Source of the DNA: Myxococcota bacterium
GTDB taxonomy: Bacteria; Myxococcota_C; UBA6777
DNA: 42,330 nucleotides
Direction of reading: 5' to 3'
Assembly: GCA_023150835.1 (NCBI GenBank)
Contig: JAKLKB010000084.1
Span: 1-42,330 of the forward strand
The notes below the pieces were generated by a model. The model was not told the origin of the DNA and made no database searches. It saw only the letters and a program-made list of their open reading frames with translations. The position numbers and the translations under genes were made by a program. This document shows, one piece after another, positions 6,073 to 42,330 of the stretch (position 1 is its first letter; each line of letters opens with the position of its first letter).

Positions 6073-6723
6073 ATGCGAGGGATGCTTTCCTCTGTTCGGT
6101 TTCTCGGTGCCTTGTGTTTTGTTTTTCTCGTAGGTTGCGGCCCCGCCAATCAAGACGCCAAGAAAAAAGACGAGAAAGAAGATCCGATCAAAGCTGCTTC
6201 TCAAGAACCTACCGTCCCTCAGCCGGGCGAAACCATGCAGCGCTTCGATCTCAACAAAGACAAAAAGCCCGATATGTGGAAGTTTTTCGTTGAAAAGCCT
6301 GATCCACGCGATGGCAGCAAAAAGATCCGAGAGCTTGTCCGTATCGAAGTCGATCTCAACGGCGACAACCGCGTCGATATCCAACGCTTCTACGAAAATG
6401 GTGTCAAAGTTCGAGAACGCTTTGATTTGGATTACGACGGAAAGTTTGATCTCGTCAACCACTACAGCCAAGGCTACCTGATCAAGCAAGAGATCTTCCA
6501 GCGCTCCCAAACCATCCCCGACCTTGTCAAACACTTCGAGATCATCGAAGAAAAAGGCAAAAAGAAGAAAAAAGTTCGCCTTGCCCGCAAAGAACGGGAT
6601 CAAAACCTCGACGGAAAGCCCGACTATTGGGAGTATTGGGAAAACGGGATGCTTGACCGCATTGGCCGAGACACCGACTTTGACGGAAAAGTGGACGTTT
6701 GGGAACGCCCACAAGCCAACTAA
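6073..6723 (+). CDS. Small lipoprotein with Ca-binding-like D-x-N-x-D-G repeats
   Basis: The 216-residue protein begins with a lipoprotein signal (hydrophobic stretch ending LVGC, Cys22), so it should be lipidated and exported. The mature part contains five acidic loops of the type D-x-[N/D]-x-D-[G/K]-x-x-D: DLNKDKKPD, DLNGDNRVD, DLDYDGKFD, DQNLDGKPD and DTDFDGKVD. Each is followed by an aromatic pair such as W-K-F-F or W-E-Y-W. These resemble EF-hand or thrombospondin-3-type calcium loops, so calcium binding is inferred. I chose ATG 6073 because GGAG lies 9 bases upstream; an in-frame TTG at 6040 has no such site. Its TAA stop is the first three bases of a palindromic repeat. The function is unknown; it converges with the giant IPT lipoprotein. 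Confidence 0.8.
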   Translation: MRGMLSSVRFLGALCFVFLVGCGPANQDAKKKDEKEDPIKAASQEPTVPQPGETMQRFDLNKDKKPDMWKFFVEKPDPRDGSKKIRELVRIEVDLNGDNRVDIQRFYENGVKVRERFDLDYDGKFDLVNHYSQGYLIKQEIFQRSQTIPDLVKHFEIIEEKGKKKKKVRLARKERDQNLDGKPDYWEYWENGMLDRIGRDTDFDGKVDVWERPQAN

Positions 6724-6831
6724 TACGAAATCCGCCCATTGTGTGATCGTAAAAATGTAGGGGCAGCCCCCTGTGGCTGCCCGACGACAGGGCGTCTACG
6801 TAGTCGTACACACCATTCGGATATCGTATTA
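6721..6831 (+). repeat. Palindromic repeat A, copy 1 (complete, 111 bp)
   Basis: The element has imperfect terminal inverted repeats: TAATACGAAATCCG at the left and CGGATATCGTATTA at the right. Inside is a GGGGCAGCC/GGCTGCCC hairpin and the sequence CAGGGCGTCTACG. It occupies exactly the space between two convergent genes. Bases 6721-6723 are the TAA stop of the lipoprotein, and 6829-6831, read on the minus strand, are the TAA stop of the IPT protein. TA flanks both ends, consistent with a TA target duplication. There is no poly-T tract, so use as a bidirectional terminator is only a possibility. Orientation is defined here as plus when ATCCGCCC is at the left. Confidence 0.9.
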
Positions 6832-9800
6832 TTTGCAGAAACCAGCCGTACAAGCGACGTTGGAGGGAGCATCAGGGAGGGCGGAACACTGGGATGTTTG
6901 GGTACAAGTGGGTCGGCAAGCGTTGGTGTCGCAAGATTCACCGCTTGCGCAAGGCTTGCTGCAGTCGGGGTTTTGGACGTTCAGTTTAACTTCGGCGCTT
7001 TTTTCGGTGACGTTGCAGGAGGGATCTTTGCAACGCAACACATAAAGCGGGTACTGTCCGGCATATTTAATGTTGGAGAGATTCAGCGTGAAGCTAAAGG
7101 TGCTGGTTTTGGGTGTGGTTCCGGGGATGGGGTTGAGCAGGTTGTTGTTAAAGATCACGATATCGGTCGCGAGTAGATTGGTGCCTGTGATGTTCACCTG
7201 TTGAAAAGCAACGCCGCGATAGACGATGGGTGGGCTGACGCTGGTGGCGGTGGGAGCGGGAGGTGGCTTGATGGTAAAGATCACAGGGTTACTCTCTTCG
7301 CCTGTGGGGTTGGCGATGGTCATGATGTAATCACCCGCTTCAAGGCCGTTAAGGCTCAAGATGCCATCCGCGTACTCGTCGTCGATATACGACTCCCACT
7401 GCCAAGCCGAAGTGACGTCTTTCCCCTTGGGATCGATGATCTTGATGACAGGATCTTTCAAGCAATAATAGCCTGTTCCGATATCACACATCCGCTCGCC
7501 CGAAAAATAGATATCAACAGAAGTCTTGGAACCGAGTACAACGCTGGTGGGGGAGATGTAGTCGACAATTGGCGGAGGAACGGGCTTAACGAAGATCATA
7601 AACAAGTTGCTGGTCGTGGTTCCTTCGCGTGCTTGGAAGTAGTAGTTGCCCGTAGCAAGGCTGTTTGCATCGATCTTGGTCACTTCGATCAACAGAGCAT
7701 TGCTGAATGTGCTGGCGACGACTTGGTTTTGGAACAACATCTCTGTGTTGGTGGTAAAGCCTTTGCCGTTGGCTTTGATCGGGCCGTAGCTTTGGCCGCG
7801 TTGGAAGTTGTTGGGATCGAAGGCATCGATGGTCAACGTGGCGGATGCAGCAAGGATCGAATAGCGTATTTCGTTGGTTTTTTTGGAGTTTTGGTTGTCG
7901 ACCACAAACTTGATCTCGCCGGGTGTTGCGCCTGTAAAGTCCACAGGCAGCTTGGTTTCGATCTGTTTGTCCGAAACGAAGTTGGTGTCAACGGCTGTAC
8001 CATTCCACAAGAGCTTGTGTTTGGAACTGAAGTTTGCACCGTTGATGACGATCTTTGCCTTGTCACCGACCTTTGCATAAGGCGGAGAAACGGAAGAGAC
8101 GTAGGGATGGGGTGGTTCGAGAACGGCGAAGGTGGAGGTAGAACTTTTGGCACCACAAGGATTGACCACAGCGAGCGAGACTTTTCCGGGCGCGATGCCG
8201 TTGAGGTTGAGGCGCACAGAAAGCGTGGAGCAGTTGGTTGACGAAGAATAGCGGGAGCAGGTGGTCGATTGTGGAACCCCGTTCATCTCGACGATGGCTC
8301 CCGGTCGCCAAAGCCCTTCGGAACCCGAGGAATAATCCAACTCGATCTCTGCGATCGTATCGGCAGGAGCGGCGGACGGCGCAATGGAATCGATACTGCG
8401 CGTCGAGGTTTCCGAGTTGGCTTGAACGGCGAATTCTTGGGGAGCGGACTCTGCACCGGGGCCGTTAATTACCTTGACTTGGTAGGAGCCAGCGACAAGG
8501 TTGCTGCCTTTGACGCTGATGCGGAGTTCTTGGGCGGAAACGAAGGTGAGTTTGTTGGTAGTGCTGGTAGTGGTGTAAGACGTGTTGCCGAACATCAACT
8601 CGCTGGTAGCGACAAAGTTGCGCCCATAAACAACGACATCTGTATCGCACTTGGTGTTCCAGCCGTCAGGGGTAAGAGCGGTCACTTGGGGGGCGCGGTA
8701 AGTGACCGTCACGGTGAAGTTGTTGGATTTTTTACCCGTCGAGCTTTGGACATGGGCGTTGTAGTTTCCGGGTGTAAAGTTGTAGTCTTTGGGGTTCAGT
8801 TCTGCGACGAAAAAGAACGGGCTGATGCCCGATATCTTTGTGATCTCTTTGTTGTCGATGAAGAATTTGAGACCCGTACGGAAGCGTTGGCCGTTGACGT
8901 TTACTTTGTTCTCTTCGCCGATGTAGATATTGAACGGGATCACGCGATCGAGGATGGGGGCGGGATCGGTGTCTTCGACGTTGAATTTGAATTTGTTGGA
9001 TTCTTGTCCCGAGGGGTTCTTGACCCAAACATCGTATGCACCCGCCGCAACGTTTGTGAGATCGAGTTCAGGATCCGCTTGCACTTCGTCGCGCCGAGGA
9101 CGCACAGAAGGGATCTCTTTGCCGTTGAAGAAGAGCTTGACACCGACTTCAAAGCCGGTGCCGTGAACGCTGAAAGGCAGCTTGGTTCCAGCCGTTGCAA
9201 AAGGCGGATTGAGCAAGGATATCTGCGGGGGAGGACCGAGGACAAGCACGTCAAAGTTCACCGAGGCCGAACGACGGCCTCCGGGGTTCAGGACATAAAG
9301 CTTGTAGGTGCCTTTGAAGATCCCTTGGAGGTCGAGAGGCGCTTTGATCTGTGTGGAACTGATGTATGTCGTCGCAAGAGGGGTTGTTTCAAAGAGGATC
9401 TGAGAGTCTTGGATAAAGCCTTTGCCAGCGATCTGGATCTCCAGCTTTTGGCCTTCTCCCGCTCGATCGGGCGTGATCGATGTGATCTCTGGAAGAGGGA
9501 TATCGTTGACCTTGAACTGAAGGGCGTTTGAGCGTTTGTTGTTGATGTTGATCACACTCATATCGTAACTGCCCGCCCCAACGCCTCGAAGATCGAGCTT
9601 GATCTTGAGTTCGGTATCCGAGACATAGCGGGTTTCGAGACGACGGTTGCCAAAGTCAAGACGCGCTCCTGCGACAAATCCCGTCCCTTTGAGGACCAGA
9701 TCGACGGCGGACTCGGTGCTGGCTTCGGTGGGAGAAACGCTTGCGAGGGTGGGTTCTTTGTCGAATCCCAAGATCGCCGTGATGGTGAGGGTATCGGGCG

Positions 9801-10524
9801 CAGAAGCAAGACCACGCGCATCCGTGACCACCAAACTCACGATGTACTCGCCTTCTTTGTCAGGCGTCAATTCAGGTTGTGCGGTGTCCGCTTTATCGAG
9901 CTTGGGGTTGCTGCCATCGGGCTGTTTGGTGATCTTCCAAGAAAAAGTCAGGCCCGAAGCCTCTCCGTCAGGATCTTTGCTATTGCGACCATCGAGGACG
10001 GTCTTGAGGCTGGGGGCGGTTTTTTGATCAGGCCCTGCATCGGCGATCGGCGCATCGTTGGGGGCCTCTTTGACTTCGATCGCAAGGGGGGCTGCAAGCT
10101 GTGAGCGCGCTTTTCCGTCGCCGACCTCAAGGTTGACTTTGTACGTTCCAGCGATATCAGGCACAAAGCCTGTGCGGTTTTGTGTTGTGGTATCCAGTTT
10201 GGCTTTGCTTCCTGCGGGAGCTTCGAGTGTCCAGATGTAATCAAGCGCATCGTTGTCATCATCGCGGCTGCGAGAAGCATCAAGAAAGACTTTTTCGCCT
10301 GTTTGTGGGGAGGACGGGTTGAAACTGGCGATGGCTTGGGGCGGTTTGTTGGCAGGGATCGAGCGACAGATCCGACCGATGCAACGAAGCCCTTCTTTGC
10401 AGTCTTCGCCGACCTGACAGGAGTCTCCAAGTCCCCCTTTGGAAGGTTCGGGAGTGCAGGCTGGATAGGTTCCTGCAAACAGCAGGAACAACAAGATATA
10501 CAAAAAGATGCGATGGTGTCTCAT
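6829..10524 (-). CDS. Large exported protein with PKD-like and about ten IPT/TIG domains
   Basis: The 1231-residue protein begins with an export signal ending ...FAGTYPAC, an atypical lipobox, so it is a probable lipoprotein. A short Cys-rich EGF-like segment (about residues 25-55) follows, then two PKD-like domains (about 40-250, with D-A-S-R-S-R-D and I-A-D-A-G-P-D-Q motifs). Next come about ten immunoglobulin-like IPT/TIG repeats, each opening with a P-x-[V/I]-x-x-[V/I]-x-P pattern such as PTLASVSP, PEITSITP and PYVSSVSP. The C-terminus is Cys-rich again. Such proteins usually form extended cell-surface rods for adhesion or polysaccharide contact; this is inference. ATG 10524 is chosen because GGAGG lies 8 bases upstream; a longer frame begins at a TTG inside that ribosome site. 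Its stop lies in repeat A. Confidence 0.85.
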   Translation of the reverse strand: MRHHRIFLYILLFLLFAGTYPACTPEPSKGGLGDSCQVGEDCKEGLRCIGRICRSIPANKPPQAIASFNPSSPQTGEKVFLDASRSRDDDNDALDYIWTLEAPAGSKAKLDTTTQNRTGFVPDIAGTYKVNLEVGDGKARSQLAAPLAIEVKEAPNDAPIADAGPDQKTAPSLKTVLDGRNSKDPDGEASGLTFSWKITKQPDGSNPKLDKADTAQPELTPDKEGEYIVSLVVTDARGLASAPDTLTITAILGFDKEPTLASVSPTEASTESAVDLVLKGTGFVAGARLDFGNRRLETRYVSDTELKIKLDLRGVGAGSYDMSVININNKRSNALQFKVNDIPLPEITSITPDRAGEGQKLEIQIAGKGFIQDSQILFETTPLATTYISSTQIKAPLDLQGIFKGTYKLYVLNPGGRRSASVNFDVLVLGPPPQISLLNPPFATAGTKLPFSVHGTGFEVGVKLFFNGKEIPSVRPRRDEVQADPELDLTNVAAGAYDVWVKNPSGQESNKFKFNVEDTDPAPILDRVIPFNIYIGEENKVNVNGQRFRTGLKFFIDNKEITKISGISPFFFVAELNPKDYNFTPGNYNAHVQSSTGKKSNNFTVTVTYRAPQVTALTPDGWNTKCDTDVVVYGRNFVATSELMFGNTSYTTTSTTNKLTFVSAQELRISVKGSNLVAGSYQVKVINGPGAESAPQEFAVQANSETSTRSIDSIAPSAAPADTIAEIELDYSSGSEGLWRPGAIVEMNGVPQSTTCSRYSSSTNCSTLSVRLNLNGIAPGKVSLAVVNPCGAKSSTSTFAVLEPPHPYVSSVSPPYAKVGDKAKIVINGANFSSKHKLLWNGTAVDTNFVSDKQIETKLPVDFTGATPGEIKFVVDNQNSKKTNEIRYSILAASATLTIDAFDPNNFQRGQSYGPIKANGKGFTTNTEMLFQNQVVASTFSNALLIEVTKIDANSLATGNYYFQAREGTTTSNLFMIFVKPVPPPIVDYISPTSVVLGSKTSVDIYFSGERMCDIGTGYYCLKDPVIKIIDPKGKDVTSAWQWESYIDDEYADGILSLNGLEAGDYIMTIANPTGEESNPVIFTIKPPPAPTATSVSPPIVYRGVAFQQVNITGTNLLATDIVIFNNNLLNPIPGTTPKTSTFSFTLNLSNIKYAGQYPLYVLRCKDPSCNVTEKSAEVKLNVQNPDCSKPCASGESCDTNACRPTCTQTSQCSALPDAPSNVACTAGFCK

Positions 10525-10795
10525 CAAAAAAACCTCCAACGGCGGTGGGCTCTTGCGGCACGCCCTTTTGAGATGAAGGGGCCGAAATCATGGACTTTAA
10601 CGAGTTTGCGTTTGCATTGCAACGGCCACGATCTGTTTCGGGCTGGAGATTTTTTATCGCGGGTTTTAGATCGCATCAACCAGAGCGGCGTAGAAAAGCA
10701 AGTCACGCAGAAACACCCCGCGCCAACACGCGCAGGCGCACGATCTCGATCAGTGCTTTTCTGCGCTTTTTTATTCAACGCAAGGAGGATCTCAG
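10525..10795. other. Divergent upstream region
   Basis: These 271 bases lie between the divergently read IPT lipoprotein and VIT-vWA genes and should hold both promoters. I see no promoter matching consensus well. An inverted repeat AGAAAAGCA (about 10694) and TGCTTTTCT (about 10755) flanks a 50-base segment just before the ribosome site (GGAGG at 10784-10788) of the plus-strand gene. Confidence 0.35.
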
Positions 10796-13105
10796 ATGAA
10801 GCTCCGTCTCGTTTCCCATGTGAGGCGTGTGGCCTGTTGGCTTGGCTTGGCCTTGTTGTGCGGTGTTCCTCAACACGCCTACGCCCAAGGCTTTTTGATC
10901 CCAACCCAACAAGCGATCGCACCGTTGTCCCTTAAATCGCACCGCGTGATGGTCAAGATCCAAGGCCGTGCCGCAAAAACAGACGTCACACAGGTCTTTG
11001 TCAACCACACCGATCAGCTTTTGGAAGCGACCTTTTTGTTCCCACTGCCCAAAGATGCGACCTTTTCCAACTTTGTGCTGTACATCAACGGCAAGCCCAC
11101 CCAAGGAACGGTATTGGTCAAAGAAAAAGCCCACGCGATCTATTCGTCGATTGTTCGGACGATGCAAGATCCCGGATTGATCGATTATTTGGGCGGGAAC
11201 CTTTTTCGCGCACGTGTATTCCCTATCCCCCGACGCGGCGAGCAAAAGATCCGCATCTCCTTTACACAGATCATCCCGTATGAAGGCGGTTTGCACCGTT
11301 TTGTGTACCCGCTCAAAACCCCTCGTCGTGTTTGGCGCACCGATCAGGATTTTACGATGGCCGTCCAATTGCACAGCAGCGCGCCGATCAAAAACATCTA
11401 TTCCCCAACGCACAAAGTCTCCATCCGCCGCAAAACCGATCGTCACGCGATCGTCGGATTCGAAGAAGACAAAGTTGCGCTAGATCGGGACTTTGTGATG
11501 TACTACTCGGTCTCCCCCAAAGATGTCGGGATCGATGTTCTTGTGCATCGAACGGGCGAACAAGACGGCTATTTCTTGTTGATGGCCACCCCGAAGACCA
11601 CGTTTGCCGCCAAAGAACTCAGCGGCAAAAACATCACCTTTGTTCTCGATACATCGGGTTCGATGCGTGGTGAAAAGATGAAATGGGCCAAAGTCGCCTT
11701 GGTGCGCTGCTTGAAAAAGTTAAATCCCAAAGATCACTTTAACGTCGTGCGCTTTTCGACGGATGTCGAAGGCTTGTTTGGTGAGTTGCAGATCGCAAGC
11801 GAAGCCCATATCCAACAAGCCGTCAGCTTTGTAGAAAAAATGGAAGCCGCAGGCGCGACCGCCATCGAAGAAGCGATGGCAAAAGCCTTGGAGCAAAAGC
11901 CCCGTGGAGACGGGATTAGCTTGATCGTCTTCATCACAGACGGCCATCCCACCGTCGGCGAAACCTCCCCTGAGATCTTGGTCAAACAAGCCAACGAGCG
12001 CAACAAATGGAAGTCACGCATCTTCACCTTCGGTATCGGTACCGACATCAACATCAAATTGCTCGATCAGATCGCACAAAGTAGCGGAGCCACGGGCGAT
12101 TATGTTGAACCCAACAAAGAGATCGCCACACGCATCGACACCTTTTATGACAAAGTACGCTACCCTGTGTTGAGCGATATCCAATTAACCACCAGCGGAG
12201 CCGTACGTTTGCGCGAGATCTATCCGCTGCGTTTGCCTGATCTCTTCCGTGGTGGGCAGCTTTTGGTGATGGGCCGTTATCGTGGAACGGGACACGCCGC
12301 GATCAAGCTGGCAGGAAAAGTCAACGGTGCGGCCCGTCAATTCGTGTACGAAGCAGCCTTTGCGAAAGAAAGCAAAGAAAACGATTTCATCTCGCGCTTG
12401 TGGGCGCATCGCAAAGTCGCTTATCTGCTCGATGCGATCCGCATGAAAGGTGAACTTCCCGAACTCAAACAAGAAGTCATCCATCTCGCCAAGCAATTCG
12501 GCATCGTCACTCCCTATACCTCTTATCTCGTCGTCGAAGAAAAAGACCGATGGCGACTCGGTGAGGATGCACAGCCCCAAGCCACGGGTACGCCCTCTCC
12601 CACCACGCCCTCGATCGCAACGCCAAAAACCGCTTGGAATCAACGCTCTCGAAGAGGATGGGGAGGCCGAGGTGCTGCAAGCGACGCAGAGCGCGGACCC
12701 AGCGGAGGAGCCCCCGCCCGCGAACCTGCCGCAGCACCGATGAAAAGCGAATCGCTCGCCAAGACCGATGGGGACGAAGCCGTCCGTGTCAGCCGCCAAC
12801 TGCGAAAGATGAAAGAAAGCAAAGTCGCTCAAAAAGGCGGTAGCGTCCGGCTGATCCAAGGCGTTCGCTTTGTTTGGCAAAGCCATCAATGGGTCGATGC
12901 CCGCTACAAGAGCGAGATGAAGACGCTCAAGATCAAGTATCTCAGCGATCTATACTTCCAAGTCTTGGCCCTCCGACCTGATCTGCGCCGCGCTTTCACC
13001 TTGGGCGCACGCCTTGTAGTGGTCGTCGGTAAAAATCGCGCCCTTGTGATCGGCACCGAAGAAGACGCCTCCACCCCCACACTTCGCAGCTTTTTGCGCA
13101 AGTGA
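10796..13105 (+). CDS. Secreted VIT plus von Willebrand A domain protein
   Basis: The 769-residue protein starts with a signal peptide cleaved near AYA (residue 30). A VIT domain follows (about 38-175), recognised by strands such as ATFLFPLP and the LFRARVFPIPRRGEQKI segment. The vWA domain (about 278-450) has a complete metal-ion-dependent adhesion site: DTSGS (285-289), the threonine of GATAIEEA, and TDGHPT. This is the inter-alpha-trypsin-inhibitor heavy-chain architecture, thought to mediate ligand or surface binding. After residue 590 comes a low-complexity, Gly/Ala/Pro-rich linker and a basic C-terminal domain (about 670-769). No sortase or PEP-CTERM tail is seen. ATG 10796 follows GGAGG by 7 bases. 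Its TGA stop is joined directly to a repeat-A terminus. Confidence 0.9.
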   Translation: MKLRLVSHVRRVACWLGLALLCGVPQHAYAQGFLIPTQQAIAPLSLKSHRVMVKIQGRAAKTDVTQVFVNHTDQLLEATFLFPLPKDATFSNFVLYINGKPTQGTVLVKEKAHAIYSSIVRTMQDPGLIDYLGGNLFRARVFPIPRRGEQKIRISFTQIIPYEGGLHRFVYPLKTPRRVWRTDQDFTMAVQLHSSAPIKNIYSPTHKVSIRRKTDRHAIVGFEEDKVALDRDFVMYYSVSPKDVGIDVLVHRTGEQDGYFLLMATPKTTFAAKELSGKNITFVLDTSGSMRGEKMKWAKVALVRCLKKLNPKDHFNVVRFSTDVEGLFGELQIASEAHIQQAVSFVEKMEAAGATAIEEAMAKALEQKPRGDGISLIVFITDGHPTVGETSPEILVKQANERNKWKSRIFTFGIGTDINIKLLDQIAQSSGATGDYVEPNKEIATRIDTFYDKVRYPVLSDIQLTTSGAVRLREIYPLRLPDLFRGGQLLVMGRYRGTGHAAIKLAGKVNGAARQFVYEAAFAKESKENDFISRLWAHRKVAYLLDAIRMKGELPELKQEVIHLAKQFGIVTPYTSYLVVEEKDRWRLGEDAQPQATGTPSPTTPSIATPKTAWNQRSRRGWGGRGAASDAERGPSGGAPAREPAAAPMKSESLAKTDGDEAVRVSRQLRKMKESKVAQKGGSVRLIQGVRFVWQSHQWVDARYKSEMKTLKIKYLSDLYFQVLALRPDLRRAFTLGARLVVVVGKNRALVIGTEEDASTPTLRSFLRK

Positions 13106-13188
13106 TACGAAATCCGAGAGATGTATACACAAAGGGGAGTATGTAGACGCCCGACTGTTGGGCAGCTACAGGGGGCATTTGATCCAAC
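13103..13188 (-). repeat. Palindromic repeat A, copy 2 (partial)
   Basis: The copy starts TGATACGAAATCCGAG, the first three bases being the stop codon of the VIT-vWA gene. It continues through GTAGACGCCCGACTGTTGGGCAGCTACAGGGGG and stops abruptly at ATTTGATCCAAC where copy 3 begins. The far half and its terminal inverted repeat are missing, so it is truncated, presumably by the adjacent insertion. It is in the minus orientation. Confidence 0.75.
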
Positions 13189-13511
13189 GAATACGATATC
13201 CGAGTGATCTGTGATCGAAGGAGAGCGCGAAGACGCCCGATTGTTGGGCAGTCACAGGGGGCTGCCCCCATAGGCGTTAGGTTAAGCGCTTGTTGGCCCC
13301 CCACCCCAGCCCTCCCCCGTGAACAGGGGAGGGAGCGAAAGTCGGAAGCAGCGGGGATGTTGTTTTTTCGTGACGCACGCTGTATGCACGAGACGCAGAC
13401 GCTACCCAAAACGGCGATCATCCTCGACCCTCCGGTGTTTCCACCTTAACAAGGCGCGTATGGGGGCTGCCCCTATGTTTTGCGATCACACACCCTGCGG
13501 ATTTCGTAGGA
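13189..13511 (-). repeat. Palindromic repeat A, copy 3, enlarged by a nested repeat B
   Basis: The ends are GAATACGATATCCGAG and CTGCGGATTTCGTAGGA, the same termini as the other copies, but the element is 323 bp instead of about 115. The extra material lies between TTAAGCG (about 13282) and CCACCTTAACAAGGCGCG (13441-13458). It includes a CCTCCCC/GGGGAGG hairpin (13311-13332) and a segment from about 13295 to 13403 that is nearly identical to 42127-42236. Apart from this element, the 13106-13566 gap holds no gene. Confidence 0.8.
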
Positions 13512-19694: not shown

Positions 19695-20110
19695 CGAAAA
19701 CCTCCTTGCTTCTTCCTTCCATCCGAAACATACCCAAGCAAACCACGCCCATGATCAAGATCGCAATTTTTCGACACGAAGTTCCTTGAACACATTGGCA
19801 AGATTTTGATTTTGATGCACTTTTTGATTCAAGAAACGCACCGTGCGATCGACGCATAATGATCGCGGCGATCATGCCGAACGCAGCGATGGATATCGCC
19901 GCTCTTTGGTTTGTGTGATCGCGCCAAAGAGCAGCCCACAACGAAAGCAAACAAAGTGCTTGTACAAAATCCGCCCACCGTGCGATCGTAAAAATGCAGA
20001 GGAAGCCCCGTGACTGCCCAATCATAGGGCATCTACGTACTCTCCTTTGTGTACCCACTCGGATATCGTATGAGGGGAGATCGTGGGGAATAGAGGCGAG
20101 AGGTGGGAGG
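19695..20110. other. Intergenic region between queF and ftsZ
   Basis: It contains repeat A copy 4 (19961-20073) and otherwise no accepted gene. A minus-strand frame spanning the repeat shows two hydrophobic runs (about 19800-19960 and near 19740) but has no plausible start or ribosome site. It may be chance or a decayed membrane-protein fragment. The ftsZ promoter should lie here. Confidence 0.4.
19961..20073 (+). repeat. Palindromic repeat A, copy 4 (diverged)
   Basis: The left end TGTACAAAATCCGCCCACCGTG and right end CACTCGGATATCGTATGA match the family, as does the GATCGTAAAAATG segment. The central hairpin has decayed: GAGGAAGCCCCGTGACTGCCC in place of GGGGCAGCC...GGCTGCCC. This copy is not at a stop codon; it lies in the gap downstream of queF and upstream of ftsZ, and so would be inside any readthrough transcript. 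Confidence 0.75.
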
Positions 20111-33800: not shown

Positions 33801-34005
33801 ACACCCCACCAGCGACGAGATCAAGCAGATCCTCACACGCCGATGGCCCGAATACACCCGCCACGATTGCGCCACACATCTCCTCTCCCACCTCCAAACG
33901 CTCGAAGATGCCCTCTACGGCGGAAGCCAGCCCCTCGACGCCAAAACGCGACAACCTTCGATCGAACAAGCCATCAAGGACTTTGACCGCCAATGCCCCC
34001 GATAA
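30841..34005 (+). CDS. Large BatD-like protein
   Basis: BatD proteins are periplasmic beta-rich, membrane-anchored partners of BatA/BatB. This 1054-residue protein has a signal peptide cleaved near DAHAQ (about residue 36). Several beta-sandwich units follow, including YTFTFYPTRSGSLQAPRLRV near 240, FTYRVRFKTNQSGPLSLPSA near 650 and a TLLLPSLSLRYYHREEG unit near 830. These are variants of the BatD repeat motif F-x-[F/I]-x-P-x-x-x-G-x-[L/Y]-x-[L/I]-P. One membrane helix (about 908-930) and a cytoplasmic helical tail with ALLALQTYLTERLS end the protein. It is longer than most BatD proteins (usually about 550-650 by my recollection), through an N-terminal expansion. The ribosome site AGGA lies 7 bases upstream of the ATG. 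Confidence 0.85.
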   Translation: MSPHQAPLRIASSARCGLFLLALWALTLCSPDAHAQTDRILLLSQSQHYQPGERIAVYAFFFRMPEQFSFFRVWERALQSNQDFTLRKTERLSIVQEYGRDPNGFPSESYNVLYRLEIEPKRHQGTLQYGPLRLQSLISNTLRFTPQSATPRSSIQSEASILTPTRQQGTPLQIRYRFRCPLALCNYDQLDQNDLLQHLRQKARLSDIEGLWPAQTNVTPEVLTATSHLTLQYTFTFYPTRSGSLQAPRLRVPIPTLQALDVRPIQHRITQWLQSTHNIPAPNAQRYIQIERNNPNRIQLQTEITPPLSLEIAPVLGCPGQWKLHSRLVTPEKSNAVYWEISLRGDGFLLLALPALRRALQDTLTQHKLSQTLELAHAIWRAPQQDLHQQIEIAYYFALPAQRPALPAISMSFLNAQNQPYTQQTPAIDRNARVTPLNETFAPAPNERRIYLYYDRAPTTEQSEQAEIWAYQLPEGFPLPTLMSQRWSLKQPPQIKHERKVRNITRRHQTRGMFGMMTQVVTQGVPIDVHTAQTEAMLRSDPLARVFPTVYWGSQRLSIQEETGSGLTLSAQTSQKRYFVGEDIEYKADLQCPPNECTPKTPGFYKQIFQKHLKIPSFDRFSGWQKLDDFTRRDLPDGRAIFTYRVRFKTNQSGPLSLPSASLRLPEQVLQSLQAEHQVCFFRGGRAEERLASAIMRDHMNLKGEQECATGTQEIETTPLQISIETLPAEARDIKLVGIFRLQATLSQLNFPTKQATVTDKPFYLLIDISGDGDLKTAQQMIQDQLAQITRDLRKKDVTAYTEIPPDEQKPDRLRVQLQLIAEQPTTLLLPSLSLRYYHREEGVLTAQTLPLSVRIEPRDGIGGVVTPRKAEPSPTPKETTSLLQETDLRPNIVLSQQQALVDQSFSPWDGMYLSLLAACPLLLLLFAGWQRQLRLRAADPTKQIQQKALQHARQALKQAQQQDAWERATLLALQTYLTERLSLRQKHPTSDEIKQILTRRWPEYTRHDCATHLLSHLQTLEDALYGGSQPLDAKTRQPSIEQAIKDFDRQCPR

Positions 34006-34040
34006 TCCGCCCCCACCATCTTTACCCCAAGAGGTCTATC

Positions 34041-34856
34041 ATGCGCCGTACCTCTGCCCTTGGCTTGCTCTCGTGGTTTGCTTTCTTTGTTTGCGCTGCT
34101 TTTTCTTCGGAGGCTTCTTCAAAACCCCGTCCAGCCGATGTCTCTGCATCTGCCGTCTTCATGCAAGCCAACCAGCACTATCACGCCCAACATTACGCAA
34201 AAGCCGTCGAGATCCTCGAAAACTTGCGCACCAAGCGCCATCTCAACCACTTTGCGATCCACTACAACCTCGGCAATGCCTACTTCCGCCTCCGTCGCTA
34301 CGGACACGCGCTCGCCTCCTATCGCCGCGCTCAGCGCCTCCACCCCAACCACGAAGATCTCTTACACAATCTCCAACTCCTCTACCAGCGCACAGGACAA
34401 GCAGACCCCGACAACAATCTCCGCCAACGTGCGCTGTTTTGGTATCGCCTCTTGACGCTGCGCCAGATCTTTTGGCTGACCTTGGCTTGTCTTGCCCTTG
34501 CTTGCTTGCTTTGGGGCGTCTTCTTGCACCGAAACGCCCAAGGGCACAAAGGTATGCGCTGGTGGGCGGCATCCTTCACCTTGATCGCCCTGTTGCTTGG
34601 TGGAAGTCTGACCGCCAAGTTTTACAACGAACAACTCGTCACAACAGGCGTGATCATCGCCCCCAAGATCACCGCACGTTCGGGGTACGGCGAAAACTTC
34701 GAGGCACTGTTCACGCTCCAAGAAGCCGAAGAAGTGACGGTCCGAGAACGCACCGCTGGATGGTTTCGGATCGAAGTCTGGCAAGAAGACACCAAACAAA
34801 AACGCCGATACCTTCGATCAGGTTGGCTGCCCGAACAAACCCTTACCACTCTCTAA
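34041..34856 (+). CDS. BatE-type TPR and SH3-like membrane protein
   Basis: The 271-residue protein has a signal peptide (about 1-25), TPR helices (about 38-115, including FAIHYNLGNAYFRLRRYGHALASYRRAQRL in two motif halves), two membrane helices (about 150-170 and 180-200) and a C-terminal SH3-like domain (about 205-271, with SGYGENFEALFTLQEAEEV and RSGWLP). This is the typical BatE architecture. I chose ATG 34041 because GAGG lies 6 bases upstream and a signal peptide begins there; an upstream in-frame ATG at 33993 would overlap the BatD-like gene and lacks a site. It is followed by repeat A copy 5. Confidence 0.88.
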   Translation: MRRTSALGLLSWFAFFVCAAFSSEASSKPRPADVSASAVFMQANQHYHAQHYAKAVEILENLRTKRHLNHFAIHYNLGNAYFRLRRYGHALASYRRAQRLHPNHEDLLHNLQLLYQRTGQADPDNNLRQRALFWYRLLTLRQIFWLTLACLALACLLWGVFLHRNAQGHKGMRWWAASFTLIALLLGGSLTAKFYNEQLVTTGVIIAPKITARSGYGENFEALFTLQEAEEVTVRERTAGWFRIEVWQEDTKQKRRYLRSGWLPEQTLTTL

Positions 34857-34872: not shown

Positions 34873-34991
34873 TTATACGAGATCCGAGTGATGTATACAC
34901 AAAGGCATCGTACACAGATGCCCTGTAATAGGGCAGCCACAGGGGGCTGCCCCTACGTTTTACGACCAAACCACGGGCGGATTTCGTATCA
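34873..34991 (-). repeat. Palindromic repeat A, copy 5, inside the operon
   Basis: The left end is TTATACGAGATCCGAG and the right end GGGCGGATTTCGTATCA, with an intact central GGGCAGCC/GGCTGCCCC hairpin. It lies 16 bases after the BatE-type stop and ends 27 bases before the chosen start of the thioredoxin gene. It is in the minus orientation. If the operon continues through it, the transcript carries a strong stem here; otherwise it may separate the last gene from the rest. Confidence 0.85.
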
Positions 34992-35018
34992 TCCCCACTC
35001 AAAGCGATGGAATCCACG

Positions 35019-36140
35019 ATGCGTACAATTTTTTTCTTCAGAACAAGTCGGCTCTTACTCGCTTGGTTCGGCCTTTTGGGGGCCTTGTGCTCGCCATCCG
35101 TCCATGCAGGTCTGCCCCATCCGTATTTTTCGCGCTTCCCCAAAGCCGAAAAAGAACTCGAAGCGCTACTCCAACGCGCTCAGATCCAGCCGCTCGAACC
35201 CCAACCTGCCGATCTGTCGCTCAAGCTCCTTGATGCCCGAGAGTCGAGGCTTTACAACGTCGCTCGCCACCGCGGCCAACTGATCGTCCTGTCCCGATGG
35301 GCCACATGGTGTTCGGCTTGCAAAGCAGAACTCCCTTCCAAACTGGCGATGCACAAACAACTCCAAGACACACGCCTCGCACTGATCGGGGTTTCCGAAG
35401 AAGATCGTGAGACCGTCCGTACATACGAACAAAAAGCCGCAGAGCGCTATCCGATCAGCTTGCTTGATTCCTCGGGCATCGTGCAAAAATTTTTCCCAAG
35501 CAGCGGACTCCCCACCACGATCTTGATCGATGCGTGGGGATGGGTGGTGGGGATGCGTGTCGGCGGCCTTGCATGGGACTCCACAGACACCCTCGCCCTG
35601 ATGCGTTATCTGTTGTCGATGCGCCCCGCACAGCCTTTGCGTGATCAAGCCCCCGCCCCCCAAGCCGAATTTACCCGCCGATGGCGCGTTCGCATCGGCC
35701 AAACCTTCGCTGTACCCGTCACCCTTCGCTGGAACGGAGAAGCCGACAAATACGCCCGTATCGCCTTCCGCCTCCCACAAGATCCCGCCTTCTCCAACGA
35801 AGGTCTCGAAACATCGGGCATCACCTCCAACGACCAAGGCAACCAACGCACCTACACGCTCAAACTCAAACTCTTGCGCACAGGGCGCTTTGAACTCAAA
35901 CCCCTCTTGCTCAACTACTGGCTCAAAGATTACGACCAGCACTTCCAAGCCGACCTCGGCAGCCTCACCGCCCAAGCCAGCGCACTCGCCCCACTCCACA
36001 CTGTCCCACCTTGGACCCTCTGGACCAGTTTGGCCGCTGTTCTCGCTTTCTTGCTCTTCCTTGGCTTCGCCATCCAACGCAGCAGTCAACGCGATCAAAA
36101 TGACCACAACGCCACCCCTCCCCCACGAAAAAAGGCATAA
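35019..36140 (+). CDS. TlpA-type thioredoxin fused to a membrane-anchored beta domain
   Basis: The 373-residue protein has a signal peptide (to about residue 30, VHAG) and a thioredoxin-fold domain (about 40-200). The redox motif WCSAC (97-101) is followed by LIGVSEEDRETV and the cis-Pro segment GLPTTILIDAWG. Such TlpA/ResA-like proteins reduce periplasmic disulfides. A second domain (about 208-315) with an LKLLRTGRFELKPLLLNYWL strand pair recalls BatD-type beta sandwiches. A membrane helix (about 325-350) and a short cytoplasmic tail end the protein. ATG 35019 is preferred (TGGA 7 bases upstream); ATG 35007 is possible. Its TAA is the start of repeat A copy 6. It probably belongs functionally to the Bat cluster. 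Confidence 0.82.
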   Translation: MRTIFFFRTSRLLLAWFGLLGALCSPSVHAGLPHPYFSRFPKAEKELEALLQRAQIQPLEPQPADLSLKLLDARESRLYNVARHRGQLIVLSRWATWCSACKAELPSKLAMHKQLQDTRLALIGVSEEDRETVRTYEQKAAERYPISLLDSSGIVQKFFPSSGLPTTILIDAWGWVVGMRVGGLAWDSTDTLALMRYLLSMRPAQPLRDQAPAPQAEFTRRWRVRIGQTFAVPVTLRWNGEADKYARIAFRLPQDPAFSNEGLETSGITSNDQGNQRTYTLKLKLLRTGRFELKPLLLNYWLKDYDQHFQADLGSLTAQASALAPLHTVPPWTLWTSLAAVLAFLLFLGFAIQRSSQRDQNDHNATPPPRKKA

Positions 36141-36243
36141 TACGAGATCCGCCCATAGTGCTACCGTAACGGTGTAGGGGCAGCCCAAGAATCGGGCGTC
36201 TACGCAATATCTTACGATCACACATCGCTCGGATATCGTATAA
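36138..36243 (+). repeat. Palindromic repeat A, copy 6 (first of a tandem pair)
   Basis: It begins TAATACGAGATCCGCCC, the TAA being the stop codon of the thioredoxin-fusion gene, and ends CGGATATCGTA merging into TAATACGA of copy 7. The central hairpin has lost one arm (GGGGCAGCCCAAGAATCGGGCGTC), so it is shorter than copy 7. It is in the plus orientation. Confidence 0.88.
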
Positions 36244-36359
36244 TACGAGATCCGCCCGTTGCGTGATCGTGACGAGGTAGGGGCTGCCCCCCGTGGCTGC
36301 CCGATGGCAGGGCGTCTACGCACGATCCTTCGATCACACATCTTGCGGATATCGTATAA
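36241..36359 (+). repeat. Palindromic repeat A, copy 7 (second of a tandem pair)
   Basis: The ends are TAATACGAGATCCGCCC and TGCGGATATCGTATAA, sharing about three bases with copy 6 in a head-to-tail tandem. The central GGGGCTGCC.../GGCTGCCC hairpin is intact. Bases 36360-36497, between this copy and the universal stress gene, show no recognised feature apart from that gene's ribosome site. Confidence 0.88.
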
Positions 36360-36497
36360 GTCCGCTGTTGAGGCTTCTATTTGATATACATCACGACAAC
36401 AAAGCTCGCTTGTGCTACACCACAAGACCAGAGTGTCGGCTGTTCGTCAAAGCCATCTGCCACCGCGCTCAAAGCGCCAACGTAGGGAGATTTTTGC

Positions 36498-36962
36498 ATG
36501 AAGCTCCAAAAGATCCTCGTCGCAACCGACTTTTCGACTTGTTCCCAAAAAGCCCTTGATTACGCCAAAGATCTGGGCGCAGCTTTTGGAGCCAAGATCT
36601 TTTTGCTCCATGTCATCGACGTTCCCGCAGAGTTATCGACCGAAGCGATGATCCGCGCAGGCCAAGAAGGCCCCTTGATCAGCCTCGAAGACTATCTGCG
36701 CGAAAGCTGCCGACAAAGCCTCGATGACTTCGCAAACCAAGTCACCAGCGCAGGGCTGGACGTCGAAGAGATCGTCGAAGCGGGTCTCCCCTACCGTGTG
36801 ATCCTTCACAAAGCCGAACACCTCGGCATCGACCTGATCGTCATGGGAACCCAAGGCCGCACAGGGCTCAAACACCTCTTCCTTGGTAGCACCGCTGAAC
36901 GTGTCGTTCGCCAAGCAACTTGCCCCGTCCTCACCCTCCGTTCCTCCGATACTTCCGCGTAA
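36498..36962 (+). CDS. Universal stress protein (UspA family)
   Basis: The 154-residue length and the opening KILVATDFSTCSQKALDYA are typical of a single UspA domain. The nucleotide-binding motif G-x2-G-x9-G-[S/T] is intact in GTQGRTGLKHLFLGST, followed by AERVVRQATCPVLTL. It is therefore probably an ATP-binding stress-resistance protein in the cytoplasm. GGGAG lies 8 bases before the ATG. Its stop codon TAA is supplied by the terminus of repeat A copy 8. It is probably a separate unit from the Bat operon, because two repeats and 138 further bases intervene. Confidence 0.94.
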   Translation: MKLQKILVATDFSTCSQKALDYAKDLGAAFGAKIFLLHVIDVPAELSTEAMIRAGQEGPLISLEDYLRESCRQSLDDFANQVTSAGLDVEEIVEAGLPYRVILHKAEHLGIDLIVMGTQGRTGLKHLFLGSTAERVVRQATCPVLTLRSSDTSA

Positions 36963-37078
36963 TACGATATCCGAGTGATCTATGATCGAAGGATAGCGCG
37001 AGGACGCCCTATCCTTGGGCAGCCACAGGGGGCTGCCCCTACGTTTTACGATCACGCTCCCTGCGGATTTCGTGTAAG
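36960..37078 (-). repeat. Palindromic repeat A, copy 8
   Basis: It begins TAATACGATATCCGAG, whose TAA is the stop of the universal stress protein, and ends CTGCGGATTTCGTGTAA. The central GGGCAGCC/GGCTGCCCC hairpin is intact. It is in the minus orientation. The following 100 bases up to 37178 separate it from the convergent giant lipoprotein and show nothing recognised. Confidence 0.9.
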
Positions 37079-37178: not shown

Positions 37179-40100
37179 TTATGGAAGTGTGACACGAAGG
37201 AAGAGGCGGTCGGTGCCGACACCTGCGCCAAAGTTGCCAAGAACATCAAGACCATAGAGACTATTTCCAAGAGAGGGAGAAAAGGTGTGCCACTCTTGCC
37301 CGTCCGAAGAGGCGACGACCACGCCTGCGCTGTCTGCGGCGAGATAGCGGCCATTTCCGACAGAGACGACAGTATAGAGGGTGTTGGTGGTTGGGCTAGT
37401 GAGGGGAGTCCACGACACACCGCCGTTTCCGCTCCACAAGATCCGACCCAATGAACCCACCGCCACCGCACTTGTCGCGGAGTATTGGGCGACAGCGTAC
37501 AGCGTGTCGGTGTTGGGGTTGGTCGAGCGGCTCCAAACATTGGCGGTGCTATCGGTGGAAAGCACGATGGTTCCGCTCGAACCGACAGCCAAACAACGGG
37601 TCGAAAGACAATGTACGCCGTTGAGCGTGTTGGTCACACCCGAAGTGCGTGTGGACCAAGAGACGCCATTGTTGCTGCTATAATGGATCGTTCCTGAGGC
37701 TCCGACGGTGACAAACCCGCTGGTGCTTTGGGCTGAGACGGCATAGAGGCTCGATGTCGTCGGCGCTGTCACCGAAGACCACGTTGCACCGCTGTCAGTC
37801 GAACGATGGATCAAGCCCGATGTTCCGACGGCGATCAACGTTGCGGGAGTGCCATCGCTTGCATCGATCCCATAAAACGTGCTGCCCGTCGTCGAAGCGT
37901 CCGTCCACGAAACGCCGTTGTCGTTGCTGCGCACAAGATTGCTTGCAAACCCCGCAGCAGCAAAGTTGTTGCTGCCGCTTTGTGTGACGGAGCGCAAGGT
38001 GCCGATCGAAGGCGAAGCGACCGTCCATGTCGCCCCATAATCGGCGGTGCGCAGGCTCAGACCATATTCTCCCACAGCGATATAGTTGGATGTCGCATAG
38101 TTACGAAACACACCGTAGAGCCAAGTGCTTGCGGGCGTGGGATTGGGGACGACCGACCATGTGCTGCCGCTATCTCCCGAACGAAGGATGGTTCCTGATG
38201 TGCCGACCGCAACGGCCCCACCAAAGTCGATCGACACAGCGCGCAACGTGCTGGTGGTGGGTGTGGTGACGTTGGTCCATGAACTTCCCCCATTGCTCGA
38301 ACGGATCACACTCCCGAGAGATCCGACGGCGATCGCGGTGCTGCCGATATCATAGAGATAGACTCCGTACAGCGTGGAGGTCGCTGGACTCGATACAGTC
38401 GCCCACGAAGTCCCCGTTGTCGTCGAGCGGATCACCACGCCTCCCGAACCGACCGCGATCGCCGTCGAGCTTTTAAGCGAGACCGCATAAAGCAGCGAAG
38501 TGGTGGGACTCGATACGGACACCCACGTAGCCCCGTTGTCGGTCGAGCGCAAGATCGTTCCCCCCGATCCCACCGCGATCGCCGTGTAAGTACTCGTCCC
38601 TGTTTCGTACACAGACACACCGTACAGCGTGTTGGCGGTCGGGCTGGTCACGGCGGTCCAAGAGATCCCACCATCCGAGGAGCGCAAGATCGTGCCGCTT
38701 GAACCGACGGCCACCGCGACGTTATCCGCAAGGCTGATCGCATAAAGCGTGTTGGTGGTTGGGGTGGGGACAGTGGTCCATGTCGTGCCGCTATTTACAG
38801 ACCGCATAATCACGCCGTAGCTTCCGGCAGAAAGAGCGATCGATCCGCCGTAGCCGTTGTCGTAAGTGGTACCGTAGAGCGTCACGCTGCGGCTTTTGGA
38901 AACAAATTGGATCGGACCTTCGCCGACAGCGCCTGCGCCCGAACGGATCGCCAAAAGTGCGGTGGGGCTGCGCAACGCGATTGCCGTGTAGCTCCCGCTG
39001 CTTCCAAGCGGGCGCTTGGTAAAACTCACGCCATGATCTTGGCTGAGGTAGTAGTCGCTGCTTCCACTTGCAGCGATCGCCAGCGTCCCACCTCCGGGCG
39101 AAATGGCATGCGCCAACGTCACCGTGTCCGCAAAGGTGATCCGCCCCCAGACACCGCCACTATCGCTGCTACGCACCACCGTTCCGCTGACGCCCACGGC
39201 CACCACATCGCTAAAGCCGGTCCAAGCCACCGCCCGCAAGTGGTTGGTGGTGGGCGAAGTCTGCGAAGTCCACGAAACACCGCTGTCGGTGGAACGTACG
39301 ATGCTACCGTTGTTTCCAACAGCCACCACCGTCCCCGAAGTCTCGGAGCGACTCGATATGCCAAAGAGAGCTTGTCCGCTGGCTTGTGTACTCGTCGTCC
39401 ACGTCGTACCTCCATCTCGCGAGACGACCACCGTGCCGCCATCGCCGACCGCAATAAAGTTGCCTGTGGTGTATGTCACGGCACGCAAGGTCGCGGTGGT
39501 TCCGCTGCTGAATTTGCTAAAGGACGCGCCCTTATCGCGTGACAACAAGATCTCACCGCTGCCACCGACGATCACCAACAAACCAGCGGTCGAAGAAGCC
39601 GCTGCAAGGAGGTTGTTGGCGCTATTGCTCGAAACGGTCGCCCACACACCTCCGCTGTTGACGGTGCGCCAAATATTCCCGTTGTTTCCGAAGGCAACGC
39701 CGATCTGAGGATCGACAAACGCGGCCCCTTGCGTCCCTGTCGGAAACGACAGGCCATTCCAATTGTTGTAAAGGCACGCACCGTTGTTGTCGATCTTTCC
39801 GTCGCAATCGTTGTCATTCCAGTCGCAAGACTCGATTACTGGGCCGACTTGCCCGTTGCAGGTGCCCGACCAGCGCCCTGCCACACAACCTTCGCTACCT
39901 GTGCGACAAGCGCCTGCACATTGGTAATTGGCCCCCACCAAGACGCACCCCGATCCGCCCGTATAACAAGCGCGAGTCTGGCCGACGTTGCACTCTCGAC
40001 ATTCGTCCACTTGTCCGTTGCAATCGTCGTCTGCGTTGTTTGCACAATCCTCCGTTCGCGGTAAGGTCTGACCGATACAGCTTCCCCATGTTCCGCTGCT

Positions 40101-41909
40101 ACAGGTCTGTGTGCCTGCTCGACAGATGCCGATATTCGCGGTCCCCGACGGTCCCGTATAACAAGACCGCGATACGCCTTGATCGACCGTCCCGTCGCAA
40201 TCGTTGTCGATGTTGTCGCAGCTTACTTCGGTGGCTTCGTATGCTGGATTGTTGGCTTTGTACTGGGCCTCGGTGCAATCGCGCCATCCAGCGGCCCCTG
40301 CACAGATCTGACGCGCTCCCGCACAAGCCCCTGTCGTCTTGCTGCACGGTGGCCCAAGGAGACCGTCATCGATCTTGCCGTTGCAATCGTCGTCTTGGCC
40401 GTTGCAGACCTCCGCAACAGGCTTGATCGCACCTTGGCAAACGCCCCATGTTCCGATGCTTACGCAGGTCTGGTCACCTTCTTTGCAAAGCCCGATGCCT
40501 TGGGTGTTTGCGGGGCCATCGTAGCACTTGCGCGTCTGGCCGGGTACGCAAAGGCAGTTGTTGTCGACTTGCCCGTCACAGTCGTCATCTTTTTGGTTGC
40601 AAAGCTCTCGATCAGGCAACACTTCACCCGCACAAGTCCCCCAACGTCCCGCCGTACACGTCTGCGTACCCGCAGCGCAAACACCTTCGCATTGGTACGT
40701 GTTCCCTTGCAGTCGACAGCCCCCTGTCCCCGAATAACACGACCGACGGAGGTTTTCATCGATCTGACCGTCGCAGTTGTTGTCAAGATTGTCGCACTTG
40801 GTCTCCGTCTCTTCGTAGTTCGGGTCGGTTTTTTGATATGCAACAGCGTCACAAGCCGCCCAACCTTGCGCACCTTTGCATTCTTTTTTGCTCCCTGCAC
40901 AGACGCCTTGTTGCTTGTCGCAAGGAGGCGCTTGCATACCGTTGTCGATCTGACCGTCGCAATCGTCGTCTTTGCCGTTGCATTCTTCGGGTATGGGTTT
41001 GATCTCCCCATCACAAGGGCTCCATTTCCCGCCTGTGTCGCAAGTGCGAGAACCTTTCTTACACAGGCCTTTTCCGCCTGTTCCATCAGGCCCTGTGTAA
41101 CATTCTTCTTTCTGCCCCGGGATACAATCGCACTTGTTGTCGACCACTCCATCGCAATCATCGTCTTTTCCGTTGCAATCTTCGCCTGATGGCGGTATCG
41201 CATCGAGGCAAGCTCCCCACGTTCCGTCGGCTTGGCAAGTCATCGTTCCCTTTTTACAGACGCCGATCCCTGCGGTCTTTTCAGGCCCCGTATAACAAGG
41301 CGCGGTCTGGCTCTCTTTGCAAGCACAAGCCGCGATATCATCGATCTTTCCGTTGCAATCGTCGTCGATGCCGTTGCAGGTTTCCTTGGTCGGCAAGCTC
41401 GCACCTTCGCAGTTTTTGTCCCATGTTCCGTCACTTTGGCATCGTTGTACCCCTGCCTTGCAGGGGAGATTGGCGCGTGTCTCGGTCGGCCCGGGATAAC
41501 ACGGCTGCGCTTCGCCTTGTTTACAAGCGCATCCCTCGTCGACAAGGCCGTTGCAGTTGTCGTCGAGCTGGTTGCATTCTTCGGTCTTGGGCAAGGACTC
41601 ACCTTCGCAAGCCCCCCATTTTCCGCTTTGACAGCGCTGTCGCCCGCCCTTGCAAGGTCCGACACCCTCCGTCCCTTCGGGGCCAGTATAGCAACGGCGA
41701 AAGTTTCCGTCTTGGCATTCGGTCGGATTCGTCTCAGGAATTACCTCGCTCGCATCTGGCGTGGAAGGTTTCACGCACTTCCCGTTTTCGCAAAGGCTGT
41801 TTGCACCGACACAATCACCGTCGAATTTGCACTCAGGATCCCCGCAAGCCGCCAACCCCATCACCCACAACAAGACCACCATTCCACACAAACTGATCAA
41901 ACGACGCAT
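37179..41909 (-). CDS. Giant lipoprotein: metal-binding-motif repeats plus Ycf48/BNR-like propellers
   Basis: The 1576-residue protein starts with a lipoprotein signal ending GLAAC and a short Cys-rich head. Residues about 60-705 contain ten Asp/Cys loops, for example CNGIDDDCNGKIDD, CNGKDDDCDGVVD and CDNIDNDCDGTVD. Between them lie CYTGPEGT and C-K-x-G-x-x-x-C units; this is the putative metal-binding (MopR-type) motif common in Myxococcota. From about 710 to the end, some twenty repeats of about 40 residues read like GTILRSTDNGATW, matching Ycf48/BNR beta-propeller blades. Twenty blades would suit about three propellers. A surface calcium-stabilised stalk with a propeller head is inferred. 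ATG 41909 is chosen over a frame 46 codons longer because GGAG lies 9 bases upstream and the signal begins there. Confidence 0.88.
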   Translation of the reverse strand: MRRLISLCGMVVLLWVMGLAACGDPECKFDGDCVGANSLCENGKCVKPSTPDASEVIPETNPTECQDGNFRRCYTGPEGTEGVGPCKGGRQRCQSGKWGACEGESLPKTEECNQLDDNCNGLVDEGCACKQGEAQPCYPGPTETRANLPCKAGVQRCQSDGTWDKNCEGASLPTKETCNGIDDDCNGKIDDIAACACKESQTAPCYTGPEKTAGIGVCKKGTMTCQADGTWGACLDAIPPSGEDCNGKDDDCDGVVDNKCDCIPGQKEECYTGPDGTGGKGLCKKGSRTCDTGGKWSPCDGEIKPIPEECNGKDDDCDGQIDNGMQAPPCDKQQGVCAGSKKECKGAQGWAACDAVAYQKTDPNYEETETKCDNLDNNCDGQIDENLRRSCYSGTGGCRLQGNTYQCEGVCAAGTQTCTAGRWGTCAGEVLPDRELCNQKDDDCDGQVDNNCLCVPGQTRKCYDGPANTQGIGLCKEGDQTCVSIGTWGVCQGAIKPVAEVCNGQDDDCNGKIDDGLLGPPCSKTTGACAGARQICAGAAGWRDCTEAQYKANNPAYEATEVSCDNIDNDCDGTVDQGVSRSCYTGPSGTANIGICRAGTQTCSSGTWGSCIGQTLPRTEDCANNADDDCNGQVDECRECNVGQTRACYTGGSGCVLVGANYQCAGACRTGSEGCVAGRWSGTCNGQVGPVIESCDWNDNDCDGKIDNNGACLYNNWNGLSFPTGTQGAAFVDPQIGVAFGNNGNIWRTVNSGGVWATVSSNSANNLLAAASSTAGLLVIVGGSGEILLSRDKGASFSKFSSGTTATLRAVTYTTGNFIAVGDGGTVVVSRDGGTTWTTSTQASGQALFGISSRSETSGTVVAVGNNGSIVRSTDSGVSWTSQTSPTTNHLRAVAWTGFSDVVAVGVSGTVVRSSDSGGVWGRITFADTVTLAHAISPGGGTLAIAASGSSDYYLSQDHGVSFTKRPLGSSGSYTAIALRSPTALLAIRSGAGAVGEGPIQFVSKSRSVTLYGTTYDNGYGGSIALSAGSYGVIMRSVNSGTTWTTVPTPTTNTLYAISLADNVAVAVGSSGTILRSSDGGISWTAVTSPTANTLYGVSVYETGTSTYTAIAVGSGGTILRSTDNGATWVSVSSPTTSLLYAVSLKSSTAIAVGSGGVVIRSTTTGTSWATVSSPATSTLYGVYLYDIGSTAIAVGSLGSVIRSSNGGSSWTNVTTPTTSTLRAVSIDFGGAVAVGTSGTILRSGDSGSTWSVVPNPTPASTWLYGVFRNYATSNYIAVGEYGLSLRTADYGATWTVASPSIGTLRSVTQSGSNNFAAAGFASNLVRSNDNGVSWTDASTTGSTFYGIDASDGTPATLIAVGTSGLIHRSTDSGATWSSVTAPTTSSLYAVSAQSTSGFVTVGASGTIHYSSNNGVSWSTRTSGVTNTLNGVHCLSTRCLAVGSSGTIVLSTDSTANVWSRSTNPNTDTLYAVAQYSATSAVAVGSLGRILWSGNGGVSWTPLTSPTTNTLYTVVSVGNGRYLAADSAGVVVASSDGQEWHTFSPSLGNSLYGLDVLGNFGAGVGTDRLFLRVTLP

Positions 41910-42050
41910 GAAACCACGCTCCACACAGCGACAAAACCCAACAAATGCCGACGGCACGACCCTTCCTTGGACATGACGAACGCACAAAACTTGATTGTCT
42001 TTCCCCCACAAGGGTTTGTAAATAGGACAAAACCAAGCGACACGCAAAAC

Positions 42051-42330
42051 GGATACGAAATCCGCCCATTGTGTGACCGTAACGGTGTAGGGGCTGCCCC
42101 CATACGCGCCTTGTTAAGCGGAGGAAAGCCCCCCACCCCGCCCTCCCCCGTGAACAGGGGAGGGAGCGAAAGTCGGAAGCATCGGGGATGTTGTTTTTTC
42201 ATGACGCACGCTGTATGCACGAAATGCAGACGCTGCCCGTTCCAACTTCCCCCCGTTGGCCGGGGGGATTGAGGGGGGGAGAAAAAAAAAGGCGATCAAG
42301 ACCGACTCTACGAGGTTTCCACCTTAACAA
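42051..42330 (+). repeat. Palindromic repeat A, copy 9, with nested repeat B (cut by window end)
   Basis: The left half GGATACGAAATCCGCCC...GTAGGGGCTGCCCCCATACG is repeat A in plus orientation. It is followed by CGCCTTGTTAAG, then the repeat-B core with a CTCCCC/GGGGAG hairpin nearly identical to copy 3. A second, G/C-run-rich palindrome follows (CCCCCCGTTGGCCGGGGGG near 42251-42269), and the window ends in CCACCTTAACAA, the inner boundary seen in copy 3. The remaining right half should lie just past the window end. Confidence 0.8.

Follow-up and report, generated by a model that had tools for sequence, protein, structure and literature searches.

We wondered why several copies of a short repeat in a 42,330-nt stretch of Myxococcota DNA (the window) begin directly behind the stop codons of genes. 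The original prediction held that these copies belong to a mobile MITE-like family that starts with A, inserts at TA, targets stop codons and rebuilds TAA or TAG stops as it lands, so that 3' ends become a safe niche. We followed up this idea with the window, the draft genome it derives from and the draft genome of a sister species of the same genus. The basis is thus two draft MAGs, with 2.43 of 7.56 Mb (32%) of the window's genome read.

Results

The repeat abuts stop codons in the window

Three forward-strand ORFs, 10796-13105, 35007-36140 and 36498-36962, end in TGA (13103-13105), TAA (36138-36140) and TAA (36960-36962), respectively, and in each case the repeat starts at the very next base. 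The proposed coincidence of repeat and stop at 13103, 36138 and 36960 is therefore exact, and excising the repeat together with one flank at 36138 and 36960 leaves GCA-TAA and GCG-TAA as described. The 36138 locus holds two elements, not one, in the arrangement TAA-E-TAA-E-TAA (36141-36240 and 36244-36356). As these tandem copies are only ~78% alike where compared, they probably arose when a second element inserted into the already duplicated TAA. The 36960 locus carries a single element (36963-37074) with TAA on each side. The copies and their flanks are as follows.

6724 to 6828, unstranded: element copy, 105 bp, TAA on the left and TTA on the right
13103 to 13105, forward: TGA, stop of ORF 10796-13105 and left flank of the composite copy
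13106 to 13508, unstranded: composite copy with a partial left end, a second left end at 13192, another repeat nested within it, and a right end
19963 to 20070, unstranded: element copy with a degenerate left end, TACAAAATCCG, flanked by TTG and TGA
34876 to 34988, unstranded: element copy, 113 bp, flanked by TTA and TCA, soon after the stop of ORF 33993-34856
36138 to 36140, forward: TAA, stop of ORF 35007-36140 and left target copy
36141 to 36240, unstranded: element copy 1, 100 bp, TACGAGATCCG...CGGATATCGTA
36241 to 36243, forward: TAA common to both tandem copies
36244 to 36356, unstranded: element copy 2, 113 bp, folding at -49/-50.9 kcal/mol
36357 to 36359, forward: TAA, right target copy
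36960 to 36962, forward: TAA, stop of ORF 36498-36962 and left target copy
36963 to 37074, unstranded: element copy, 112 bp
37075 to 37077, forward: TAA, right target copy
42054 to 42330, forward: left end of a copy cut off by the contig end and interrupted by the nested repeat also seen in 13106-13508

The copy at 6724-6828 has a gene stop on each side, namely the TAA of ORF 6040-6723 (+) and the TTA (TAA on the other strand) of ORF 6829-10539 (-). The composite copy lies between TGA on the left and GGA on the right, the latter possibly a decayed TGA.

Other repeats occur in and around the copies. The nested one has CATACGCGCCTTGTTAAG ends (13268-13460 and 42090-42330 in the window, also at C70:110701 and on C235 and C234) and sits in the GGGGCAGCCCCC hairpin of many MITE copies, a hairpin that is also entered by further foreign ends, ACACTTGGACCAACTCA and AACACTCGGACACAT, often at contig ends. 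A different family with a GTAGGGGC hairpin (GTGTGATTTCCAACATGTAGGGGCAACC...) is found at ~179-210 of the window and at the ends of C1 and C2, forming arrays at contig ends. The minus strand of the window encodes a 1622-aa ORF (37179-42047) with repeated ~195-bp segments (D2-D4) that reads as a Cys/Asp-rich repeat protein, and elsewhere in the genome a long CRISPR-like array (C237, ~53400-56700) has a repeat that contains CCTTACGGCATCCGAGAGAATGGCAG at a spacing of ~72 bp.

A genus-restricted MITE family

Element-end matches in the window numbered 19 versus 6.75 by chance (two mismatches allowed), and the 12-mer ATACGADATCCG had 696 exact matches in the 7.56-Mb draft genome versus none for the reversed control pattern. 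Both ends of the element read TACGAnATCCG in inverted orientation, and the length mode is 112-113 bp. The element is short, has terminal inverted repeats and no coding capacity, duplicates its target site and is missing from corresponding sites in a relative (see below). Among five genomes of the phylum the family is present in only two, both of this genus. A wider contig scan, which may not have included the window's own genome, found it only in the sister MAG, Myxococcota bacterium KLAP109. The repeat is thus a new, genus-restricted family of a known kind of element, and the view of it as a mobile MITE-like family holds.

Head-to-tail runs with copies ~87-117 bp apart were also observed (C8 at 25191 and 25307; C42 at 24307, 24394 and 24481; C205 at 10 and 127). 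The C8 pair has one TNA in common and is 99% identical, which suggests tandem duplication rather than separate insertions.

The element duplicates TNA, not TA

Among 154 exact TACGAnATCCG ends in the first 1.34 Mb, the adjoining outer triplet was TGA in 30, TTA in 29, TCA in 28 and TAA in 27. Within 2.43 Mb we identified 165 two-ended elements. Identical 3-bp flanks were found in 58 of them, and 57 of these 58 are TNA, whereas shuffling of the right flanks yielded only 18.4 ± 3.8 perfect TNA duplications (maximum 33 in 5000 shuffles). This excess indicates a target duplication of 3 bp, TNA, with the four bases about equally frequent at N. The remaining 108 elements lack a perfect duplication, which we assume to result from decay or from recombination between copies. 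The joined targets display a symmetric, weakly palindromic consensus, SGNV-TNA-BNCS.

The four TNA triplets are TAA, TGA and, as their reverse complements, TTA and TCA, so one strand of every target reads as a stop trinucleotide. Insertion into a TAA or TGA stop hence regenerates the stop through the target duplication, as had been envisaged. The flanks show TNA in place of the expected TA duplication, and the leading A ascribed to the element is part of the duplicated target. The rebuilding of TAA stops stands and extends to TGA, but the rebuilding of TAG does not: no TAG stop was hit (0/254) versus 31 of 1140 TAA/TGA stops (P 0.002). TAG cannot be TNA, and its absence is predicted by the TNA rule and not by a TA rule.

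These observations bear on the assignment to the IS630/Tc1-type MITEs, which duplicate TA. At TAA sites the TA and TNA readings produce the same joined string, and the window's genome does encode an IS630-type DDE_3 gene (C225:19194). Yet with N evenly distributed, three quarters of the TNA flanks have no TA beside the TACGA end, TAG stops are spared, and the sister genome, which harbors the family, has no DDE_3 match. We consider an IS630/Tc1 origin extremely improbable, as it fails on the target duplication.

Empty sites in the sister species retain an intact stop

For 18 perfect insertions that coincide with a stop, the joined flanks (element and one TNA excised) were searched in the sister genome. 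Six sites (C12:1794, C17:12270, C38:10464, C235:10095, C235:97949 and C232:10119) align end to end without an element-sized gap and with an uninterrupted stop; alignment lengths are equal in four of them and 238/240 and 227/236 in the other two. At C22:25864 and C72:8946 the sister also has ~113-118 extra bases, i.e. the insertions are common to both genomes. Reciprocally, an element flanked by TGA on both sides in the sister corresponds to a single TGA without element in the window's genome, at a site inside a short tandem repeat.

One sister contig lacks the window copies at 6721, 13103, 19960 and 34873. The composite copy at 13103 is absent within one continuous match (523 subject and 482 query letters). 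At 34873 the element is replaced by 14 unrelated bases in the sister, which disqualifies this locus as a clean one-step empty site, and at 36960 the sister carries a truncated relative (TACGATCTCCGAGAG) behind the same stop, shifted by a further 4 bp.

Stops are hit about as often as their spacers predict

To keep gene calls independent of the element, we excised the elements from the contigs before calling (1427 genes, 81% coding). The calls come from our own caller, which erred at the 6721 site. Of the target-weighted TNA sites, 75% lie in coding DNA, but only one of the 57 perfect insertions does. Among 53 unique perfect non-coding insertions, 18 lie exactly at a called stop, compared to 10.5% expected (P 4e-6), and a looser set gave 31 of 122 (P 2e-6). 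Across the DNA read, stop coincidence thus exceeds the intergenic expectation. The bias is graded, with 3.2-fold usage at the stop, 1.6- to 2.1-fold at +1 to +50 and 0.34-fold at distances above 400 bp. Convergent spacers received more insertions than expected (22 versus 8.5). The notion of 3' ends as a safe niche is borne out by these counts.

Does the element home to stops or gene 3' ends, for instance through DNA exposure coupled to termination or a transposase that recognizes stop context? The 3.2-fold usage of stops and the convergent bias would fit. However, stops account for 45% of the weighted TNA sites within 0-50 bp of 3' ends, and stops did not differ from positions +1 to +50 downstream (P 0.096 for perfect and 0.58 for loose insertions). 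When the TNA sites of the same spacer served as the reference for each insertion, the enrichment vanished (17 stop hits versus 15.6 expected). Target models built from non-stop insertions only predicted 13.9-14.8 hits versus the 17 seen (z 1.1-1.5); over three target models the small excess remained non-significant (z 0.75 to 1.5). Without target weighting the spacer-matched expectation was 10.0, so a mild preference for stops may exist. Many insertions lie far away from any stop. Homing is accordingly a poor candidate, and the stronger form of the idea, in which the enzyme truly prefers stops or terminating gene ends and heals them by TNA duplication to gain a harmless genome-wide niche, appears if anything slightly less credible. 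The claim that the family targets stop codons is not supported: stop hits are about as frequent as the TNA sites of the same spacers predict, and stops are often hit because they fit TNA and are located in tolerated 3' or convergent spacers.

Folding of the element

The copies fold strongly (z -2.3 to -5.4). Together with the 3' and convergent bias and the internal GTAG-tagged hairpins, which resemble REPs, likewise found 3' of genes (PMC3733652), this could point to retention at 3' ends as a terminator or mRNA stabilizer acting through the transcript or a cruciform, a REP-like function. Over 113 copies, however, covariation did not exceed column shuffles (paired fraction 0.808 versus 0.805; 14 compensated pairs versus 11.4), and the orientation of the copies relative to the upstream gene showed no clear bias. 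Lacking either signal, we infer that selection against insertions elsewhere is the preferable explanation, and regard a positive terminator role as unlikely.

Relationship to known elements and search for a transposase

In its duplication the element behaves like members of the IS1031 group (IS5 family), which follow a TNA rule. ISLrh, a member of this group, prefers 5'-TNA-3' and creates exclusively 3-bp duplications, as seen for our MITE (PMC12016507). ISLrh encodes its own transposase (857 bp) and has GAACCTGTC... ends (PMC12016507), while the MITE ends in TACGAnATCCG and no partner was found for it in the DNA searched (see below). NuwaII and PIF-Harbinger (PHIS) elements resemble the MITE in behavior, as they duplicate 3 bp and their target is palindromic (C|TNA|G, or TWA for PIF/Harbinger), but they are eukaryotic and their outer target bases are unlike those of the MITE (PMC4482050). 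MITEAba12 (PMC6382973) and Chunjie (PMC10969869) share the size range (~110-235 bp), inverted ends, target duplication and mostly intergenic location; MITEAba12 differs in its 9-bp duplications and known parent IS (PMC6382973), as opposed to TNA and no known parent here.

GTAG REPs occupy the 3' sides of genes and convergent spacers as the MITE does, and their ends often provide a stop, TAG (PMC3733652). The GTAG-tagged palindrome GTAGGGGC... is found within 130 bp of an element end in 237 of 334 occurrences. REPs are palindromes of 20-40 bp that are associated with RAYT transposases (PMC3733652), in contrast to the long inverted ends and TNA duplication of the MITE. RAYT (Y1) gave two matches at about the cut-off in the window's genome, each covering part of the domain, and none in the sister. 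The presence of only these two weak matches speaks against an assignment to REP/BIME.

The partner search covered pairs of ends separated by 400-3500 bp and flanked by the same TNA, unpaired ends with a foreign interior, and the families PF01609, PF13586, PF13340, PF13358 and PF01797; it left out the region around the intact IS630-type gene at C225:19194. No transposase with TACGAnATCCG ends, i.e. no full-length IS sharing the ends of the MITE, was found in the 2.43 of 7.56 Mb examined. Of five DDE_Tnp_1 (PF01609) matches in the genome, none has element ends at its boundaries. PF13586 is represented by a single remnant whose ends differ from those of the MITE, and PF13340 was found in neither genome. 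A PF01609 gene with one TACGAAATCCG nearby (L114) was rejected as a partner, its site having neither a TNA flank nor a matching second end.

The window's genome contains another TNA-duplicating element, an internally deleted IS5-like element (L110:1281-1692, on C238) with GAGGGTGTTTGCGAAAAA ends and a TTA duplication, which directly adjoins a MITE copy.

Discussion

Taken together, we hold it to be highly probable that the repeat is a TNA-duplicating MITE whose coincidence with stops arises from target specificity filtered by selection and not from stop recognition. According to this model, a short non-autonomous DNA transposon with inverted TACGAnATCCG ends would be mobilized by a DDE-type transposase cutting with a 3-bp stagger at TNA within the weak palindrome SGNV-TNA-BNCS, and each insertion would gain TNA on both sides. 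An element landing precisely in a TAA or TGA stop would leave the upstream gene with an intact stop, whereas insertions elsewhere in genes would be lost. The survivors would be spacer insertions, chiefly 3' and convergent, where almost half of the TNA sites within 50 bp are stops. Selection is thus the presumed cause of the bias.

The healing of stops is inherent in TNA duplication and does not amount to a stop-seeking device. Any TNA-duplicating transposon is always bracketed, on one strand, by a pair of stop trinucleotides; it can enter a TAA or TGA stop without harm to the protein, whereas TAG stops are closed to it. In a limited phrase search, no publication stating this rule linking TNA duplication to stop entry turned up. 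The rule predicts that landing of IS1031-type and Harbinger-type elements in other genomes depends on the stop codon, and it implies that apparent stop-seeking can arise from target choice and selection.
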